Assembly: GCA_958295805.1 (NCBI GenBank)
Contig: OY282373.1
Location: forward strand, 1,955,001 to 2,019,000
Reading direction: 5' to 3'
Origin: an uncultured Nitrospirales bacterium
GTDB taxonomy: Bacteria; Nitrospirota; Nitrospiria; Nitrospirales; UBA8639
DNA: 64,000 nt
Part shown: in pieces, positions 11,808-48,625 of the stretch
Position numbering within the stretch: position 1 is the stretch's first letter
Layout: each line of letters starts with the position of its first letter
Notes under the pieces: model-generated
The model's database searches: none
What the model was told of the DNA's origin: nothing
The model's input: only the letters and a program-made list of their open reading frames with translations
Program-made: the position numbers and the translations under genes

Positions 11808-13595
11808 TTAAAATCCTTCCGCAAAATTCCGAAGTCGCCTGCTTTCATTTGAATGCCGAAGTTTGCGTAAGGCCTTGGCTTCAATCTGCCGAATCCGCTC
11901 CCGCGTCACGCTGAAGTCCTGCCCCACCTCCTCCAACGTATGATCCGTCGCCTCCCCAATCCCAAACCGTTTCCGCAGCACCTTCTCTTCCCGCGACGTC
12001 AGCGACTCCAACGACGTCGCGATATGCCGCTGCAAGTCATATCGCACCGCCGCCTCCAACGGCGACACCGCCTTCTTGTCCTCAATAAAGTCCCCTAAAT
12101 GACTGTCTTCTTCTTCCCCAATCGGCGTCTCCAGCGAGATCGGCTCCTTCGCTATCTTCAAGATCTTCCGCACCTTCTCTAACGGCATCTCCATCCGCTC
12201 CCCGATCTCTTCCGGCGTCGGCTCCCGCCCCAACTGTTGCACCAAATGCCGCGACGTCCGCACCAGCTTGTTGATCGCTTCGATCATGTGCACCGGAATC
12301 CGTATCGTCCGCGCCTGATCCGCAATCGCCCGCGTGATCGCTTGCCGAATCCACCACGTCGCATACGTGCTGAATTTATACCCCCGCTGGTATTCAAACT
12401 TGTCCACCGCCTTCATTAACCCGATGTTCCCTTCCTGAATCAGGTCTAAAAACTGTAACCCCCGATTCGTGTATTTCTTCGCGATACTCACCACCAACCG
12501 CAAGTTCGCTTCGATCAACTCCGCTTTGCCCCGCTTCATCTTCTCTTCCGCCCCTTCCACGCCCCCCAACGCCCGCTTGAATTCCTCCGTCGGCAACCCC
12601 GTCCGCCCCGCCACCGCCTTCAGCGTCGCCGCCGCCTGACTCGCCCGCAGCACCGCTCCCATCGTCCCCTCACTCAGCCCCGCCCCGGCGCCCGCCTGCT
12701 CCCGCCTCATCTGCCGCAACACCTTCACGCCCCCCGGCCACGGCGCCCCCACTCGCCGACAACACGCCCGCAACACCCCCTCCGCCTTCCGCACTTGCCG
12801 CCCCTCCGCCTTGATCTCCGCCAACACCTCCCCCCAGACCCCCGGCTGCAACTTCAGCGCCTCCCACCGCGCCACCAAGTGCCCCTGCACCTGCTCCACC
12901 TGCTTCGCCATCCGCCCCTGCTCCCCCGCTCCCGCTTGCCGCCGCTTGACATACAGCCCCGTCAGCCGCTGGCTTAACCGCCGCACTTTCCCCAATTCTC
13001 CCACCGTCTGCCGCAGCAACTCGCTCTCATCCTCCTCCGGCCCGCCCGCCCGCTCCACGTCCTCCTCGTCGCTCGGCTCATGCACCAACTCCCGCACCCG
13101 CACCGCCCCGCTCTTCAGCCCCGCCCGCCACGCCTCCAGCCGCGCCAGCGTCAGCGGCAGCCCCACCATCGCCCTCACCAACTCCGCTTTCCCTTCCTCG
13201 ATCTTCTTCGCTAACTCGATCTCCCCTTCCCTTGTAAGAAGAGAAACGCGAGCCATTTCATTGAGGTACAAACGAACCGGATCGTCAATCCGGTTGAGCG
13301 TCCCAGGCGTCAGATCGATTTCCTTTTCAGAATCTTCTGAAGATTCATCGAGTTCATCAACTGACGTCGGCCGGCCGGAATCCCCATTGGCTTGAGCATC
13401 GAATCCTTCATTTTCAGTGAACACCGCATTCTTGAAGGGGGCTTCTCCAAGCACCGTGAGCGAGGACGAACGCTGACCGGAAGAGTTTTTTTTGATCGGT
13501 GAGATATCCTTTCTCTCATCAACGTTCATCCGTTTCGATTTTCTACCGCCCCTTATAATCGGTTTGGTATTCCCTATGACACTGGTTCTTGGCAT
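11808..13595 (-). CDS. rpoD: RNA polymerase primary sigma factor RpoD (sigma-70)
   Basis: 595 residues with all primary-sigma landmarks: region 1.2 ([11 protein letters not shown]), a non-conserved insert, region 2 ([33 protein letters not shown]), region 3, and the region 4.2 helix-turn-helix ([21 protein letters not shown]). It directs core polymerase to housekeeping promoters. Codon use is odd: in the 100 codons from 13199 to 12900, 81 end in G, against 13 of the first 45 codons of the gene. The G-rich block continues into region 2. The protein itself looks intact. Confidence 0.95.
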
Positions 13596-40376: not shown

Positions 40377-41723
40377 TTATCGCGGAACGTCAAGGGTCAA
40401 TCGGGCGGGAAACAGTCGATCCACGTCCCGACGGCGTCGCACGTCACGGAGAAGCGTTTCGATTCGCGGCGTCACGCGGCCGTGGAAACTCACGCGGCCG
40501 TTCGTCGTGACCGTCACGGATTTGGAAAAATCGATCAAGGCCTCATTCAAAAACACGGTGTATCGACGGACCCGGTCGGTTTGGACGTCGATATGATTCT
40601 CACCTCTCACCTCAACGGCCAATTTTGCGTACACCTTGTTCTTGATCAGATCATCCTGATAATCCATCAACTGCTCTGAAAACATGGCAATGCGGTCCGT
40701 CGAATCGATACGCACCCAGCCGAAGTCCGTCAAATGACTGGCGTCCCGAACCACGGTCAATCTCCGCGGATACGGATCACGGCGTTGCCGCTCAAACCAC
40801 TCCACCAGGGCCGGCAACTCCTGTCGAGGAAAGAAATGACCGCCGGCGTGTGGATGCACCCATTCGTGTTCACGATACGTAAAGGCGATCCCAAGCCGCG
40901 ATAATTCATTCGTGATCGTCCGACTCAGCCAGACGGGCATGACGCGATCCCTGGCTCCGTGAATCACGTACACCGAGGCGTGCCGAATATTTTCCAGAAA
41001 GGGAAACAGGACGTCGTCAATTCCGCCGGCCATTGGCGCCACCGCAGCAAACCGAGGCGCGTGGTGCATACCAATCATCCACGCACCGACGCCGCCGTTC
41101 GACATGCCCGTCAAGTAAATTCGGTTCGGATCAACGCGATAGTGCGCACGGACGGCTTGAATGGTGTTGAGCACTAACTCTTCACCGAACCGCGTCCACC
41201 ACGTCCCCATCCTGATCGTAGGACAGGCAAGAAGAAAGGACTCCCCCAACCGCGCAACCCATCGCTCCAGATAGGAATCGCCCGTAAACCCGGCCCCGTG
41301 CAAACAGATCACCAACGGCAACGCCACCGCGGGATCATAAGACGGCGGCACAAACAGGCCATACGAAAAGGTTCGTCCGCGAACCCGAATCGGCCGCTTC
41401 GGAAGCCTGCCCACCGGAGCCTCATCATAGGTGCGACTTTGTTTGAGCAGGCGGCTCACGTGCTCCAGCGTGGCATCAGGATGCGCCAGAATTGTCTGCA
41501 AGACCGACTCAGCCCGTAGACGATCCTCAACCGCGAGATAGTGCACGACAAGGGTTGCCAAGGATTGGCCTGATGTCCGGAGCAAAACGGTTGCAGCACC
41601 GGATTGCGTGGGCCGTTCCCACGCACCGGCACCTGCCTCCAGATTCCCGACGGCCGGCAGTCCGACAAAAATCAGCACAATCACCAGAGCACGGCGCACG
41701 AGATTCCCATCATTCACCATCAC
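40377..41723 (-). CDS. Exported alpha/beta hydrolase (poly-hydroxybutyrate depolymerase/esterase-like)
   Basis: 448 residues. An N-terminal signal-like helix (ALVIVLIFVGLPAVG), a helical spacer, then an alpha/beta hydrolase core: oxyanion strand PLVICLHGAGFTGDSY, nucleophile elbow GMSNGG, acid in VIHGARDRVMP and His in HPHAGGHFF. The C-terminal 150 residues form an extra domain. Substrate unknown; related proteins cleave esters of polymers or feruloyl groups. The start overlaps the end of recQ by 14 bases. Confidence 0.75.
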   Translation of the reverse strand: MMVNDGNLVRRALVIVLIFVGLPAVGNLEAGAGAWERPTQSGAATVLLRTSGQSLATLVVHYLAVEDRLRAESVLQTILAHPDATLEHVSRLLKQSRTYDEAPVGRLPKRPIRVRGRTFSYGLFVPPSYDPAVALPLVICLHGAGFTGDSYLERWVARLGESFLLACPTIRMGTWWTRFGEELVLNTIQAVRAHYRVDPNRIYLTGMSNGGVGAWMIGMHHAPRFAAVAPMAGGIDDVLFPFLENIRHASVYVIHGARDRVMPVWLSRTITNELSRLGIAFTYREHEWVHPHAGGHFFPRQELPALVEWFERQRRDPYPRRLTVVRDASHLTDFGWVRIDSTDRIAMFSEQLMDYQDDLIKNKVYAKLAVEVRGENHIDVQTDRVRRYTVFLNEALIDFSKSVTVTTNGRVSFHGRVTPRIETLLRDVRRRRDVDRLFPARLTLDVPR

Positions 41724-43581
41724 GCTCCCCCGACGGATGTTCCCTCACGACCCGTAAAAAAATACTGCCGTATTTCCTTAATTTATGTTCGCCGACGCCC
41801 GGGATTTGCGCAAGGTCTTCCAGCGTTCGTGGCTTGACTCGGGCCAACTCACGCAAGGTGGCGTCGTGAAACACGACGTAGGGGGGCACGCCCTGCTCCC
41901 GTGCCAGAGTCGTACGCGCCTCACGTAACGCTTGCCACAGGGGTTCGTCGTTCGGCGAGACCGGCACAACGGGACTCCTTACAACGGGACTCTTTTCTTT
42001 TTTCACCGTCACGGGACGCCGCAATTTACGCAGGGTCAGCCCCCGCTCGCCACGCAGCACCGGATGTGCCTGCTCCGTCAGGCGCAGGGCGTCGAAACGC
42101 TCGGCGTCCACCCAAAGACAGCCTTGAGCAATCAGTTGACGGAAAATGGAGCGCCACTCGGCGGCAACGTACTCCGCGCCGCTGCCGAACACCTGGAGTC
42201 GATCGTGGCGGTAATTTCGGACGCGCGCGTTATTCTTGCCGATGAGCACGTCAACCAGATAGTTCACGCCGAAACGCTCGCCGGTGCGGGAAACGCAAGA
42301 GAGGGCCTTTCGCGCGGCCTCAGCACCTTCCCACGTTTGCGGCGGGTCCAGGCAGTTGTCGCAATTGCCGCAGTCTTCCCCAGGCTCCTCACCAAAGTAG
42401 GCACGGACGGCGCGTCGGCGACAGGTGGCCAGTTCACACAGCCCCACCATTGCTTCCAGTTTCTGATGCTCCACTCGCTTGTACGCCTCGTCGGCTTCGG
42501 ACTCGGACAGCCATTGCCGGAAGATGATGATTTCCCTCAGACCGTAATTCATCCACGCGCTAGCCGGTAGGCCATCCCTGCCCGCACGACCCGTTTCCTG
42601 GTAGTAAGCCTCAATGCTTTTCGGCAGACTGAGGTGGACGACGAAGCGCACGTCGGGCTTGTCGATACCCATGCCGAACGCGACCGTGGCAACGATCACC
42701 ACGCCCTCCTCACGCAGGAACCGCTCCTGGTGTCGGCGGCGCGCGTGGTCCGAAAGGCCCGCGTGATAGGGCAGCGCGTCGCGTCCACGGGCACGCAGCC
42801 ACTCGGCGATCTCATCCACTTTCTTGCGCGTCAGGCAGTAGACGATGCCGGAATCGGCGGGGTGCTCGCTTTGGAGAAACCGCCACATGCGCTCACGCCC
42901 GTTATCGTCGTCGGAGATGGCGTACCTGACGTTGAGACGATCACAACTGTGGCTGTAGACGTTGGCCTCTTCCAGCTGCAATTGGGCAATGATTTCACGG
43001 CGCGTCGCGGCGTCGGCGGTGGCCGTCAGGGCAATGCGCGGCACGGCGGGATACCGCTCGTGCAACACCGACAATTGCAAATATTCCTCTCGGAAGTCGT
43101 GCCCCCAGCGCGACACGCAATGGGCTTCGTCAATGGCAAACAAGGCGATGGTTTGCCTGTCCAGCCACGCCAGAGTACGATCCTGCACCAGACGCTCCGG
43201 CGCGACGTAGAGCAGATCCAACCGCCCGCCGCTGACCGCTGCCTCCACTGCCCGTACTTCCTCCAGGCCCAAAGTGGAGTTCAGGCAAGCGGCACGCACC
43301 CCACACTGGCGCAACGCGTCCACTTGATCCTTCATCAACGCAATCAACGGCGACACCACGACGCCCACCCCTTCCCGCATCATGGCCGGCACTTGATAGC
43401 ACAACGATTTCCCCCCGCCGGTCGGCATCAGGACCAGGGCATCTCTGCCGGCCAGCAGATCCGCTATCATGTCCTCCTGTCGCAAGCGAAAAGAAGCATG
43501 TCCGAAGACGCTCTGAAGAATACGAAGCGCAGCGTCGGTGGATTGGCCGTGTTCCATTGCCTGTTTTTCCTGATTCCCCAT
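41710..43581 (-). CDS. recQ: ATP-dependent DNA helicase RecQ
   Basis: About 623 residues. SF2 helicase motifs: MPTGGGKSLCYQVPA (I), DEAHCVSRWGHDFREEY (II), SATAD-type ALTATAD (III), and GRAGRDG (VI). The RecQ zinc module shows CRRRAVRAYFGEEPGEDCGNCDNC in pieces, then a winged helix and a C-terminal HRDC domain (LAREQGVPPYVVFHDATLRELA). It unwinds DNA in recombination and repair. Starts at 43557 or 43620 are also possible. Confidence 0.95.
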   Translation of the reverse strand: MGNQEKQAMEHGQSTDAALRILQSVFGHASFRLRQEDMIADLLAGRDALVLMPTGGGKSLCYQVPAMMREGVGVVVSPLIALMKDQVDALRQCGVRAACLNSTLGLEEVRAVEAAVSGGRLDLLYVAPERLVQDRTLAWLDRQTIALFAIDEAHCVSRWGHDFREEYLQLSVLHERYPAVPRIALTATADAATRREIIAQLQLEEANVYSHSCDRLNVRYAISDDDNGRERMWRFLQSEHPADSGIVYCLTRKKVDEIAEWLRARGRDALPYHAGLSDHARRRHQERFLREEGVVIVATVAFGMGIDKPDVRFVVHLSLPKSIEAYYQETGRAGRDGLPASAWMNYGLREIIIFRQWLSESEADEAYKRVEHQKLEAMVGLCELATCRRRAVRAYFGEEPGEDCGNCDNCLDPPQTWEGAEAARKALSCVSRTGERFGVNYLVDVLIGKNNARVRNYRHDRLQVFGSGAEYVAAEWRSIFRQLIAQGCLWVDAERFDALRLTEQAHPVLRGERGLTLRKLRRPVTVKKEKSPVVRSPVVPVSPNDEPLWQALREARTTLAREQGVPPYVVFHDATLRELARVKPRTLEDLAQIPGVGEHKLRKYGSIFLRVVREHPSGERDGE

Positions 43582-43667
43582 GACACACCGATGACGTGGA
43601 CGACGATCAAGCCGCGACACCGTCGTAGTATACAGGCCAGCACGGCATCAGGTCACGCATCATACAC

Positions 43668-43691
43668 GGGTTCAGTGGAACCTTTGAACCC
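43668..43691. repeat. 7-bp palindrome between recQ and the ATPase gene
   Basis: GGGTTCA, ten-base loop, TGAACCC in the divergent intergenic region. It could be an operator or RNA stem for either gene. Confidence 0.3.
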
Positions 43692-43758
43692 ACGCACCTG
43701 CTTGACCACTCCACCATCAATAGCGTCTAATTTCATCCATTGACAAAAACGACGCAGG

Positions 43759-44835
43759 ATGGCCGTACAGGAGAGAGTGGAAACGGTGCTCAAGAAAATA
43801 CGAATACGGAATTTTCGCAAATTGAACGGTCTTAAGATTGATCGGATGGACCAGGTAAACCTGTTTACCGGCCGCAACAATTCAGGCAAGACGACGCTCC
43901 TGGAAGCACTGTTTTTGTTGGTTGGCGCCGGAAACGCCGGAATGACGTTGAGTATTAACGCATTTCGTGGAATCGACTCGGTAGGTGGAACGCCGGCGGC
44001 AATTCGGGAAGCATTCTGGAAACCTATGTTCTCCGAACTTGAAATGAGCGAAGTCATCCAAGTAGAGGCAGAGGAGACGTTACTCGGCCAGTTGACGCTA
44101 AGCATCATGCTGGAGCAGCCGGGTGTGATTGAACTCCCGATTGGGAAACCAGCCGGAACGGCGGCGGAATTCTTGAAGGAAAGTCCGCTGCTGTTTTCGT
44201 TCGACAGCAAACAGACCGGACACGTTGAATGCCGCATGCGCGTACAGGGAACCGGTATTCAGATCGAACATCCTGCTGCCAGCGTCCCACTTCAAGCCGT
44301 GTTTCTTTCATCTCGACTAGGAAATCTCCAAGAAGACGCGATGCGCTTGGGACAACTTCGGAAACGCAAGCAGGCGACGATCATTGTGGACGCACTCAAA
44401 ATCGTCGAACCCAGACTGCAAAGCGTTGAGGATAATTCCGCGAGTGGAACGCCGCTGATTTGGGGCGACGTCGGGTTGCCCGAACTCATACCCCTTCCCG
44501 TCATGGGCGAAGGCATGACGCGCGTCGCCAGATTGATTCTGGCACTCTCCGCGGCTCAAGGCGGCCTTGTGCTGGTTGACGAGATCGAAAACGGATTGCA
44601 CCACACGATCTTGGCCAAAGTCTGGCAGGCGATCAACGCAGCAGCAAAGAACTTTAACACGCAGGTCATTGCAACCACGCATAGCTTTGAATGTATGGAG
44701 GCCGCCTATCAGTCCCTCGGGAAAGATGGTTTTTGTCTCCATCGGCTCGAAGCCGAGAACGGCAAAAGCCGCTGCGTGACGTACGAACCGGATCAGATCG
44801 AGGCCGTAATTCGTCACAGGCTGGAAGTTCGCTGA
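43759..44835 (+). CDS. OLD-like (AAA-15 type) ATPase, first gene of a putative defence pair
   Basis: 358 residues. The sequence is of the ABC/SMC-like ATPase kind found in OLD-family proteins: IRIRNFRKLNGLKIDRM, Walker A GRNNSGKTTLLEA at about 38-46, signature-like GEGMTRVARLILAL, Walker B GLVLVDEIENGLHH, and the switch ATTHSFECMEAA. No nuclease domain is fused to it; the next gene supplies a TOPRIM-like protein two bases later. A GTG at 43786 with GGAGAG upstream is an alternative start. Confidence 0.82.
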   Translation: MAVQERVETVLKKIRIRNFRKLNGLKIDRMDQVNLFTGRNNSGKTTLLEALFLLVGAGNAGMTLSINAFRGIDSVGGTPAAIREAFWKPMFSELEMSEVIQVEAEETLLGQLTLSIMLEQPGVIELPIGKPAGTAAEFLKESPLLFSFDSKQTGHVECRMRVQGTGIQIEHPAASVPLQAVFLSSRLGNLQEDAMRLGQLRKRKQATIIVDALKIVEPRLQSVEDNSASGTPLIWGDVGLPELIPLPVMGEGMTRVARLILALSAAQGGLVLVDEIENGLHHTILAKVWQAINAAAKNFNTQVIATTHSFECMEAAYQSLGKDGFCLHRLEAENGKSRCVTYEPDQIEAVIRHRLEVR

Positions 44836-44837
44836 CC

Positions 44838-45446
44838 ATGCCCCAACCGAATACGATTGAGGAGAAAACACAACTTTTGGTTGAGGGAAACGATCAGCGA
44901 AATTTTTTCGAGGCGTTTATCAAACACCTCAATCGTCAGGACGTCCAAATTCAAAATTTCGGCGGGATCAATGAACTACGCGGATTTTTGCGTGGATTTA
45001 TCAAGGTTCCCGATTTCCATTCGGTTGAGAGTATAGGAATTGTCCGCGACGCGGAAACCAATGCCGACAGTGCGTTTCAAAGCGTCGTGACGGCAGTAAG
45101 GGCGGTGAGGTTACCGATTCATGGACGCGCTGCGCAAAAGAAAACGGACTGCCCGCGTGTGAGCGTACTCATCCTTCCCGATGGTAGGAGTCCGGGAATG
45201 CTGGAAACGCTGCTGAATCGGTCATTTGCAGACGATTCAGTGAATGGGTGCATCGATGTGTTTTTTCAGTGTGTCAATGACCTACCCAGCAGGCAGATTC
45301 AAAGACCCGAAAAGGCCCGAACACATGCCTATCTCTCGACGCGGCCCGAACCCCAATTTTCAGTAGGCGTGGCAGCGAAAAATAATTACTGGGATTTGGA
45401 CCACAAGGAGTTCGAACCCATCCGTTCTTTCCTAGCAGGGCTATAG
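44838..45446 (+). CDS. DUF3226 (TOPRIM-like) protein, second gene of the putative defence pair
   Basis: 202 residues. Typical DUF3226 course: QLLVEGNDQRNFFEAFI with the conserved Glu of a TOPRIM-like fold, GIVRDAETNADSAFQSV with the acidic residues after strand 3, and VLILPDGRSPGMLETLL. Related proteins are coupled to ABC-type ATPases. It follows the ATPase gene by two bases, so the two are translated together. Nuclease activity is inferred from the fold and not shown. Confidence 0.75.
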   Translation: MPQPNTIEEKTQLLVEGNDQRNFFEAFIKHLNRQDVQIQNFGGINELRGFLRGFIKVPDFHSVESIGIVRDAETNADSAFQSVVTAVRAVRLPIHGRAAQKKTDCPRVSVLILPDGRSPGMLETLLNRSFADDSVNGCIDVFFQCVNDLPSRQIQRPEKARTHAYLSTRPEPQFSVGVAAKNNYWDLDHKEFEPIRSFLAGL

Positions 45447-45471
45447 GACTCTCGGCTTATAGCTGGTTCCC

Positions 45472-47484
45472 ATGATGTTTTTTCCTTCTCCTGGAAAGGC
45501 CACCCGCCTGGGTGACGGCTTGGCCTTGGCCGCGGCGGTGCTCGTCCCCCTCCTCCTCTACGGACTCACCCTCCCTCGCACCGTCGTCCTGGAAGACGAC
45601 GGCCTGTTCCTGATGGCCGGAGCCCACCTCGGCGTCGCCCATCCCCCCGGCTATCCCCTCTACACGCTGCTCTGTCACCTCGTCACGTGGTTGCCCTTCG
45701 GCACCGTCGCTTTCCTCGGCCACCTGTCCAGCGCGATCCTGGGCGCGCTGGCATGCGGCGGCGTCTATTTGTGCGCCCGGCTGTTGCAGGCCGCGCCCGT
45801 ACCGGCCGTGACGGCGGCCTGGCTGTTCGCTGCCTCGGAGCACGTCTGGGCTCAGGCCATCATCGCGGAGGTGTATACGCTGAACGCGCTGTTGTTCTTT
45901 GCCACGTATGGGCTGATTCTGTACGGGGTGCGGCACCCGGCGCGGTCCCGCCTCTGGATGGCTGCGGCCGCGGGGTACGGGTTGAGTCTGGCCAATCACT
46001 GGCCACTGATGGGACTGGCTTTGCCCGGCCTGCTGCTGGCGGTCCTGCCGGCCTGGAAGTCCCTGCCCGTCAAACTGCCGAAACTCGTCGCGGTTTCGCT
46101 GGTGAGCGCGGCCCTCCCCTATGCGTGGATGGTGGTACGCTCCTGGCAGGAGCCGTTCATCAGCTTCTACGGCCCGATTACGGACTGGGAGGCATTCTGG
46201 TACTACGTCAGCAGAAGCGGCTATTCCAAAGTCGACGTGAGCCCCAGCGCGGACTGGGGCGACCGTTTGGCGTTTCTGGGGTGGTTTGGGAACGAAGTGA
46301 TCTGGCAGGTGACGCTGCCGGGGTTCGCGCTCGCAGCACTGGGCCTCTACGCGCTGTTCCGTTGCCGGCGATACACCGAAGCGGGCTCAGGGTTGCTGGT
46401 GTTCCTGGGGAACAGCGCGGTGTTGATCGTCCTGCTCCGCTTCGATTTCGACGATTATAACGTCTCAGTCTTCCGCCCCTACTCCCTGGTCAGCTACGGG
46501 ATCGTGTCCCTGTGGCTGGCGGTCGGATTGCAGTTTCTCCTGGACCGCCTGCCCACCGGGCTTCGCACGGGGCCGTGGGTGCGAACCGGTGCCGCGGCCC
46601 TGGCGGGTTTGGGGATGGTGGCGTATTCCGTACAGGCGAACTGGGGCTTGAACGATCGCTCCGGCAGCGATTTTTCGGAGCGGTATTCGGAAGTGATGTT
46701 TGACCTGCTGCCGCAAGACGCGGTGCTGTTCGTGTTCGGCGACTCTGAGATCGGCCCCCTCGGCTACTACCGCTTCGTTGAGCAGCGTCGCCCGGACGTT
46801 ACCCTGCTGAGCGCCCAGGGGCTGGTGTACGGAAACCGCCTCTACCGGCCAAGAACGTCCGATCGGCGCAAAGCCGAAGCCCTCCGGCGGTTCGTGAATG
46901 AAACAGATCGTCCCGTTTTCTATACCATCGAAGACGAAAAAATTCCCCACGACGGCGGCAGCCGACGCCACGGGTTCGTCAAGGAAGTCATTCGGGAGGG
47001 TGCGCCAGGCGCCATGGAGTTACGCATCCAGCCGCAAGCCGAGCACTATTTCGAGGAACTCCTGAACCGGCAGCCGGTCGATAGCTGGGAACGATTTCGA
47101 CGGCATAAATTGCTCTACCTCTACGGCGAGCACCTTGGATACGCCGTACTGTCGGGCAACGCCGAGCTGTTGGAAAGAACGCGACGCACGCTTGCACTTG
47201 CCAGGCGGAGTTTCTTCAGTCTGATCGGAATGGTCGAAGTCCTGTTAAATCACGGGAATCGCTCACATCTGGCACAAATTGACGAGTGGTTGCAGGAGGC
47301 GGATCACATGCAGGATGAGATCATGAGTAAAGAGCGGATGGCCAGGTTTCTCTATCTGAAAGGATTTCTGCGTTATCGCCTGGGTCGGGCGGAGGAAGCC
47401 GTCGCGTTGTTCCGAAAGTCCCTCGCCATCTACCCGCATCCGGACAATGCGTCCATCATGGCACTCAAGCAGATCGTACCTTGA
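45472..47484 (+). CDS. DUF2723 membrane protein (protein O-mannosyltransferase-like) with C-terminal helical repeats
   Basis: 670 residues. The first 400 form about ten membrane helices with the DUF2723 hallmarks: LEDDGLFLMAGAHLGVAHPPGYPLY split over helix 1-2 (acidic DD and HPPGYP), AIIAEVYTLNALLFF and LANHWPLM. GT-C glycosyltransferases of this kind use polyprenyl sugars on the outer face of the inner membrane. The last 200 residues have TPR-like helices (FLRYRLGRAEEAVALFRKSLAIYP). It is coded in a GC-rich style unlike its left neighbours. Confidence 0.82.
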   Translation: MMFFPSPGKATRLGDGLALAAAVLVPLLLYGLTLPRTVVLEDDGLFLMAGAHLGVAHPPGYPLYTLLCHLVTWLPFGTVAFLGHLSSAILGALACGGVYLCARLLQAAPVPAVTAAWLFAASEHVWAQAIIAEVYTLNALLFFATYGLILYGVRHPARSRLWMAAAAGYGLSLANHWPLMGLALPGLLLAVLPAWKSLPVKLPKLVAVSLVSAALPYAWMVVRSWQEPFISFYGPITDWEAFWYYVSRSGYSKVDVSPSADWGDRLAFLGWFGNEVIWQVTLPGFALAALGLYALFRCRRYTEAGSGLLVFLGNSAVLIVLLRFDFDDYNVSVFRPYSLVSYGIVSLWLAVGLQFLLDRLPTGLRTGPWVRTGAAALAGLGMVAYSVQANWGLNDRSGSDFSERYSEVMFDLLPQDAVLFVFGDSEIGPLGYYRFVEQRRPDVTLLSAQGLVYGNRLYRPRTSDRRKAEALRRFVNETDRPVFYTIEDEKIPHDGGSRRHGFVKEVIREGAPGAMELRIQPQAEHYFEELLNRQPVDSWERFRRHKLLYLYGEHLGYAVLSGNAELLERTRRTLALARRSFFSLIGMVEVLLNHGNRSHLAQIDEWLQEADHMQDEIMSKERMARFLYLKGFLRYRLGRAEEAVALFRKSLAIYPHPDNASIMALKQIVP

Positions 47485-47511
47485 GCCGGGTCGTCCACGA
47501 ACCCCGGCTCA
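47482..47511 (+). terminator. GC-rich hairpin after the DUF2723 gene
   Basis: TGAGCCGGG ... CCCCGGCTCA overlapping the stop codon. There is no T-run, so it may be a weak terminator or an mRNA-stabilising stem. Confidence 0.35.
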
Positions 47512-47627
47512 GGGCAACGTTCTCGAACACAGGGACACGTCGTTGATTTTTCCACCATCAATTCTGTAATTTGGCCCGTCTGTCGGTCCTTGATTGCGGG
47601 ATGGAATGACTCGGAAAGGAGAAAACC

Positions 47628-48602
47628 ATGAAAAAGACGGAACGGCGAAATCTGAACATCCTTCTTGCTTTGACGCTGGGTGTCTGTATCCTTGGATCGG
47701 CAAGCTTGGCAAGTGCTGAAGAAAAAAGCCGGCGGGGCTTCTACGTCGGCATTGATGTGGGTCTGACACACGCCGCGAGCATGGGTTCTCCCCTTTCGGG
47801 CATCAGCCACCCCACGCGCTGCGACAGCATCTTGTACCAGCAAGCGACTGAAACTGAGGGTAGGCAGTTCACGGCACCGACCGATGATAAATGCACGACC
47901 ACCACTCCCAAAGATCCCATCTATACCGCTGATTTCGATCTGAACACCGGATTCGCCGGTGCCCTCAGCGCGGGCTACACGCTGGACAATCTGCGCTTCG
48001 AAGTCGAATACCTGCACCGACGCCAGGATGGCGACTCATCTCTCCTGCCCGGAACGACCGACGTGACCCGAGGCAAAGGCCGCGAATGGCTTGAGCCACC
48101 GTCCGCGAGCATTTCCGACTTCCAGGCCAACCAACTCTTCTTGAACGCGTATTACGATTTCAGGAACGACTCGCCCTGGACGCCCTATCTGGGCGCGGGG
48201 CTCGGCTGGGCACGCACCAGTCTGCGCTACGGAAACCACTACATGCGCAAGAATGGCCAAGACTATCTGGAAGCGGTCAAGGACCAGGGGTGGCCCGACA
48301 ATACAGATGCAGTCAAGCTTGAGGCTGCCGGAACGACCAGCTATCTGAACACGCGGATCAGCAAAAACCTCTTCGGCTTCCAGTTTCTCGGTGGACTGGA
48401 CTATGCCCTCACGGAAAAGGTATCCATCGGGCTGAAAGGGCGCTGGGCCCGTTTTCAGAACATCCGCCACAACGCCGTCTGGAACAAAATCCGCGGTCAC
48501 GCACCGGTCCTTGCCGACGGTGTGACGCCGTACCGGGTACGCATAAAACTGGACAACGTTGAGTACTGGGGAATGACGCTCGGGCTGAAATACCACTTCT
48601 GA
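47628..48602 (+). CDS. Outer-membrane beta-barrel protein (P44/Msp2-like surface protein)
   Basis: 324 residues. AAAGGAG ribosome site; a signal peptide ending ASLASAEEK; then alternating amphipathic strands (GFYVGIDVGLTHAA; GFAGALSAGYTLDNLRFEVEYLHRR; PWTPYLGAGLGWAR) and a C-terminal GLKYHF ending in Phe, as required for BAM insertion. Matches the small opacity/P44-Msp2 porin group. Two cysteines in the first loop may form a disulphide. Role unknown. Confidence 0.8.
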   Translation: MKKTERRNLNILLALTLGVCILGSASLASAEEKSRRGFYVGIDVGLTHAASMGSPLSGISHPTRCDSILYQQATETEGRQFTAPTDDKCTTTTPKDPIYTADFDLNTGFAGALSAGYTLDNLRFEVEYLHRRQDGDSSLLPGTTDVTRGKGREWLEPPSASISDFQANQLFLNAYYDFRNDSPWTPYLGAGLGWARTSLRYGNHYMRKNGQDYLEAVKDQGWPDNTDAVKLEAAGTTSYLNTRISKNLFGFQFLGGLDYALTEKVSIGLKGRWARFQNIRHNAVWNKIRGHAPVLADGVTPYRVRIKLDNVEYWGMTLGLKYHF

Positions 48603-48625
48603 TCCGGTATCCATCCGCGGAAGCC

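Follow-up and report, generated by a model that had tools for sequence, protein, structure and literature searches.

A probable OLD-related immune module of the PDC-M38 type, pairing an ABC-type ATPase with a stand-alone DUF3226 Toprim protein, in a Nitrospirales genome

Within the window, by which we mean the whole stretch of 64,000 nucleotides analyzed here (G000:C1:1955001-2019000, part of a 2.90-Mb single-contig genome), an ABC-type ATPase gene is followed directly by a gene encoding a DUF3226 protein, and we consider it probable that the two form an OLD-related immune module (PDC-M38) working as an ATPase-gated Toprim nuclease switch, similar to PARIS and AbiL-like pairs. This is not the first sighting of such a pair, which is already catalogued in PADLOC as candidate PDC-M38. 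The initial annotation had proposed a candidate anti-phage module, a proposal that holds at candidate strength given the matches to PDC-M38A and PDC-M38B and the accessory, mobile nature of the pair. The features discussed are listed below.

43759 to 44835, + strand: ABC-type ATPase of the SMC/Rad50/OLD head class (PDC-M38A/AbiLi-like), 358 aa, C-terminus LEVR-COOH; presumed sensor and inhibitor
44838 to 45446, + strand: stand-alone Toprim protein DUF3226 (PDC-M38B), 202 aa; presumed nuclease effector
44821 to 44832, + strand: codons for the ATPase C-terminal Leu-Glu-Val-Arg, immediately 5' of the stop; candidate docking tail
43558 to 43758, no strand: intergenic, separating recQ from the divergent ATPase gene; marks the left end of the insert, as judged by comparing the recQ-elbB junction with congeners
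43558 to 48625, no strand: segment that congeners lack between recQ and elbB; contains the pair together with the TMEM260-like and outer-membrane barrel genes listed below; from the same junction comparison
45472 to 47484: TMEM260-like gene in the inserted segment
47628 to 48602: outer-membrane barrel gene in the inserted segment

Both ORFs were confirmed on the + strand as originally called. The ATPase ends in TGA, two bases follow, and DUF3226 opens with ATG at 44838; stop codon and new start separate ATPase and Toprim into two polypeptides. On the opposite strand lies recQ (ORF 41710-43620, likely start ~43557). The GC content of the pair was 52.4% versus 56.3% for the window, and the adjoining TMEM260-like gene, on the side where a block of different base composition had been pointed out earlier, had 62.4% GC. 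Four more homologs of this gene, 35 to 72% identical, occur in the same genome, that with 72% identity at G000:C1:889559, and hence the insert may combine separate events. Elsewhere in the window, an rpoD-like sigma factor gene (11808-13595, by sequence reading) showed extreme base skew in its middle part, with 63% GC and a GC skew of -0.43 over 12001-13000.

The second protein matched Pfam DUF3226 (2e-29, residues 11-200) and, in PADLOC, only PDC-M38B (1.7e-12). Its AF2 model, built from a 41-sequence alignment, had a pLDDT of 94.1 and the strand and helix order of a Toprim domain (b1 11-16, b3 65-71, b4 107-113), with E16 closing strand 1 and D71 closing strand 3, as the Toprim fold demands. 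The best four PDB matches found by Foldseek were OLD Toprim domains. A second structural aligner ranked PH0156 (2p62) first (Z 13.1, rmsd 3.2, 183 residues), gave OLD Toprim domains Z scores of 8.6-9.6, and placed DnaG, topoisomerase I, and AriB (8ux9, Z 6.5) lower in the ranking. Succinyl-CoA synthetase domains also aligned, at Z ~9 over ~113 residues; this likeness was read as the common Rossmann-like arrangement, since OLD aligned over more residues and shares the same acidic site.

Across the 41 homologs, positions E16, D71, D/E73, E123, and K159 were fixed (each 41/41), the second position of the DxD motif being Glu in 28 of them, the window protein included. Of the acidic residues named in the initial annotation, Glu16 and Asp71 are thus invariant, but Asp77 was present in only 8 of 41 sequences and was rejected as a site residue. 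The active site of Burkholderia pseudomallei OLD (BpOLD) comprises E400, D455-x-D457, E508, and K562 with two magnesium ions, and combined changes of the ligands, or changes of K562, impair cutting (PMC6755086). E16, D71-x-[D/E]73, E123, and K159 follow the same order as this set, a comparison of residue order only, in which E123 and K159 match E508 and K562 by order and not by superposition. DUF3226 therefore appears, at the level of sequence, to keep the complete predicted two-metal nuclease residue set plus the extra lysine of the OLD type. The DUF3226 profile also picked up, below the cut-off, the C-terminal Toprim parts of single-chain OLD-like proteins, and hhalign with one such protein aligned VEGND with TEGQDD and RDAE with HDRDD. 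Judged by its modeled fold, DUF3226 is a Toprim nuclease, with cutting as its predicted activity, and so gains a concrete predicted biochemical identity as an OLD-type Toprim nuclease. A DUF3226 fold devoid of the Toprim acidic site, which the initial annotation had held would speak against its reading, is excluded, and its suggestion of a split OLD-like ATPase and stand-alone Toprim protein is supported by fold, active-site conservation, and profile bridging.

The ATPase matched Pfam AAA_21 (7.6e-23) and AAA_15 (3.4e-21) and, almost equally, the PADLOC models PDC-M38A (5.4e-51) and AbiLi (6.2e-51, over 11-358), with the PADLOC AriA models scoring far below both. The nucleotide-binding motif set, described as complete from the window protein, was conserved among 41 homologs: Walker A GxNNxGK[TS], the signature-like [ML]GEGxxR, Walker B DExE(N)G, and the switch residue H308. 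Compared with the AF2 model of the ATPase (pLDDT 90.5), the heads of SMC, Rad50, PtuA, GajA, and OLD were effectively tied (Z 17.6-19.4).

The ATPases end, exactly at the carboxy terminus, in hydrophobic-E-[VIL]-R, the Glu and the Arg each being present in 40 of 41 sequences, and an E-[VIL]-R-type end was also found in the Klebsiella and viral-contig ATPases, while HEC-01A and other nearby ATPases have no such end. We ruled out that the tail is a mere by-product of a ribosome-binding site: a Shine-Dalgarno-like motif was seen in only 20 of 41 cases and the Arg is encoded by six codon types, which argues for selection at the protein level. The tail occupies the position where a single-chain OLD would run on into its Toprim domain and is a candidate contact with the Toprim subunit. 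This conserved end is a new detail of PDC-M38-type pairs, and through it the way in which such ATPases would restrain their nucleases can be put to a sharp test.

At 45 of 46 genome loci, drawn from many phyla (one locus fragmentary), the ATPase gene was found directly upstream of the DUF3226 gene on the same strand, and the gap was nearly always within a few bases, with 2 bp as the commonest spacing. The sole exception to pairing, L097, is a truncated copy. ATPase and DUF3226 form an obligate, tightly coupled module across phyla. The window genome itself encodes a second pair, with DUF3226 at 1377043-1377684 adjoining a HigB/antitoxin-like pair; this locus (L034 1235-11995, G000:C1 ~1368235-1378995) also carries a gene for a 1358-aa DrmMI/IIG-like protein and bSEFIR (3.8e-67). 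In the phylogeny, the window pair clustered with a Defluviicoccus pair (support 99/98), and the tree alone gave no significant support for transfer, grouping with the congeners not being rejected (AU p 0.165). By record names, many of the closest relatives (L070-L098; 47-58% identical and from several phyla) are apparently MAGs from sponge or coral microbiomes. This origin hints at exchange within such communities, of which the tree alone is no proof.

Comparison within the genus showed the pair to be an insertion. The spacing between recQ and elbB was 8-85 bp in six congeners (G001, G004, G005, G011, G012, and G013) and ~5 kb in the window, where the pair, the TMEM260-like gene, and the outer-membrane barrel gene intervene. 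A recQ gene with at least 55% identity was present in 13 of the 14 genomes of the genus, and DUF3226 in 5 of 14. recQ was rejected as a part of the system, being conserved across the genus without the pair; the neighborhood with recQ reported in the initial annotation is real, recQ adjoining on the opposite strand, but a meaning for it is not supported, as recQ is core and the pair is inserted. Other cargo occupies the same junction in G010 and G007, so the recQ-elbB junction is a variable spot, and may be a spot for defense cargo. The G010:C1 insert (L051 10821-14376) encodes proteins of 225 and 968 aa, the latter a partial match to Dsr1 (5.6e-22), and behind them a small pair of genes that is found alone at the G007 junction (L053 11762-12290). 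No integrase or repeats were seen at the window insert, and the short ends of the segment that were compared showed neither repeats nor target duplications. Broken copies of the pair, by frameshift or truncation, were found at L093, L095, and L097, and G013 holds only a partial ATPase. The pair is accessory, gained and lost.

A relative was recorded in 144 plasmid records, 138 of them from Klebsiella and a few from other enterobacteria. In Klebsiella and a few Escherichia coli strains, the pair is carried on ColE1-type plasmids of ~4.1-4.7 kb (pKpn114 and related plasmids, L116 and L061), where it is the main cargo beside little more than replication genes. These small plasmids make the question directly testable in laboratory E. 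coli. A 337-kb conjugative resistance plasmid (L117) also contains an integrated copy. On a viral contig (IMGVR_UViG_3300046458_000053; L118 2402-4141), the pair is flanked by a tRNA-Gly gene on one side and by phi3-like prophage tail genes on the other. The edge between a tRNA and prophage tail genes is a typical place for cargo genes, and this position is likely a prophage-edge cargo site. No DUF3226 relatives turned up in named phage records, and two of three scans returned none in viral contigs.

Genomic context gave a mixed picture. Among copies in the window's genus, a type I restriction-modification (R-M) operon lies directly behind the pair at L029, a IIG R-M enzyme beside it at L026, HEC-01A/B at L033, and the DrmMI/IIG-like gene and bSEFIR at the second locus of the window genome. 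Across ~40 loci from many phyla, however, no enrichment of defense genes near the pair was found, the rates being similarly low for the two neighbors on each side (135 proteins), distal genes (125 proteins), and the window; these rates are approximate, relying on family tallies only and on gene sets from simple ORF calling. Immediate neighbors across phyla were mostly housekeeping genes, and some clades hold the pair at one housekeeping site, as in Methylomonas, between trmU and purB, and in Caldilineaceae. The window copy has no defense genes as its own neighbors, and a defense island in the window was rejected, since its 54 other ORFs gave few PADLOC matches, among them the core RecQ, which was called as DpdF, and a type II-like DNA methyltransferase gene (714-2249; PADLOC MTase_II, 6.5e-149) that lies ~41 kb from the pair, at the window's left edge. 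In four Caldilineaceae loci (L084, L085, L086, and L098), the pair occupies one and the same site, with hisG on one side and a xylose-isomerase-like/sulfatase cluster on the other, and L098 has an additional IIG R-M gene just upstream; this site is a candidate case of long vertical keeping of a candidate defense pair. The initial annotation had taken occurrence in housekeeping contexts only as speaking against a defense role: many copies do lie among housekeeping genes without enrichment, yet others lie beside R-M, HEC-01, or toxin-antitoxin-like genes. Given the housekeeping neighbors and the lack of enrichment, genomic context was not used as strong support.

Because the pair has the same anatomy as PARIS and AbiL-like pairs, an ATPase-gated nuclease switch is, by analogy, the most likely reading. 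In such a switch, the ATPase would assemble as an oligomer, bind the Toprim subunit, and keep it inactive, with the conserved hydrophobic-E-[VIL]-R tail as the likely contact between the two. The ATPase would then be altered by a phage protein, or by a change in nucleotide or DNA state that the phage brings about, and would activate or release the nuclease; this in turn would cut nucleic acid and halt the phage, the cell itself probably being arrested or killed. As to the target, our guess slightly favors RNA (e.g., tRNA, as for AriB) over DNA, since no extra DNA-binding domain is attached to the Toprim subunit. A more specific proposal, which we put forward tentatively and with some doubt, is that the free carboxy terminus of the ATPase, hydrophobic-Glu-[Val/Ile/Leu]-Arg-COOH, acts on the partner's Toprim active site as a plug or docking peptide. 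If true, the pair would be a tail-inhibited nuclease switch with a family-defining signature, and its mode of restraint would be one that the papers cited here do not state for PARIS.

The main rival to an immune function, which we regard as unlikely, is that the pair serves DNA repair or chromosome maintenance, with a RecF/Rad50-like ATPase and a Toprim nuclease acting on the cell's own DNA. Its appeal comes from an ATPase fold that is equally close to Rad50/SMC heads and to defense ATPases, from the many copies among housekeeping genes and the clades that keep one site, and from the precedent of Cran1, an archaeal OLD-family protein that acts in the cell cycle and not in defense (PMC12796447). 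Patchiness (5 of 14 genomes), empty sites, broken copies (L093, L095, L097, and G013), and carriage on small plasmids do not fit such a maintenance role.

Plasmid carriage is what lends weight to a slightly less probable reading, in which the pair is a toxin-antitoxin, plasmid-addiction, or anti-plasmid module, the ATPase being the antitoxin and the DUF3226 nuclease the toxin, and serves plasmid stability or the exclusion of rival plasmids, not defense against phages. Most of the 144 plasmid records (138 from Klebsiella) are small plasmids, with mainly replication genes alongside the relative, and Toprim toxins neutralized by AAA proteins do act as toxin-antitoxin pairs (PMC10440598). Chromosomal copies outside plasmids in many phyla count against it, as does the anti-phage activity of the AAA-Toprim pairs that have been tested, PARIS and AbiL (PMC12409363, PMC10440598), and its mechanism overlaps with that of an immune module. 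We think it very improbable that the pair is purely regulatory, with a Toprim subunit that no longer cuts and is a binding partner only: nothing favors this directly, although the second DxD position is Glu in 28 of 41 sequences, including the window protein, and none of the 41 has lost a presumed metal ligand or the catalytic-type lysine.

An immune module related to OLD remains our preferred reading, and the catalogued system that it matches is PDC-M38, with A next to B in the same two-gene layout. Both window proteins were matched by its two models, each taken singly. The Methylomonas pair is near-archetypal (8.8e-140 and 5.1e-66), and the window pair is a divergent branch. A literature search returned no paper naming DUF3226, PDC-M38, or PH0156. 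PDCs are described as unvalidated (PMC12988326). PH0156 of Pyrococcus horikoshii (PDB 2p62), the best structural match to DUF3226, with motif I and RD-x-[DE] aligned, is listed in its PDB entry as a hypothetical protein.

OLD class 1 and class 2 (Gabija GajA) proteins combine the same two activities and have a two-metal site with a lysine (PMC6755086) of the kind predicted for DUF3226, but OLD class 1 and GajA are single-chain, whereas the window pair consists of two chains. GajA also has a UvrD-like partner, GajB, and no such helicase accompanies the window pair, the adjoining helicase being the core RecQ on the other strand. HEC-01 in PADLOC, which adjoins a DUF3226 pair at L033, is likewise a two-gene ATPase with a small partner; however, that partner is unrelated to DUF3226 by profile comparison, and the HEC-01 ATPase lacks the E-[VIL]-R end.

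In PARIS (OLD class 4, AriA and AriB), an ABC ATPase and a Toprim protein are likewise encoded by separate adjacent genes. AriB has the Toprim fold in common with DUF3226 (8ux9, Z 6.5; profile E 0.88) but is longer (316 residues in 8ux9 versus ~200 aa) and belongs to another family, DUF4435; no AriB-family match to the window effector was found up to E 1, only the DUF3226 and PDC-M38B models matching. The AriA hexamer sequesters AriB, a phage protein acts as the trigger, and AriB then cuts host tRNAs (PMC12409363). In AbiL-like pairs, an AAA protein neutralizes a Toprim toxin (PMC10440598). The model of the lactococcal ATPase AbiLi is as close to the window ATPase as that of PDC-M38A (6.2e-51 versus 5.4e-51) and is the best one for the Klebsiella ATPase (1.9e-58), but the AbiL effector, AbiLii, is of the RloB family, and neither AbiLii nor RloB models matched the DUF3226 effector of the window. 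PDC-M38 thereby takes its place beside PARIS and AbiL as a further, probable split ATPase-Toprim system.
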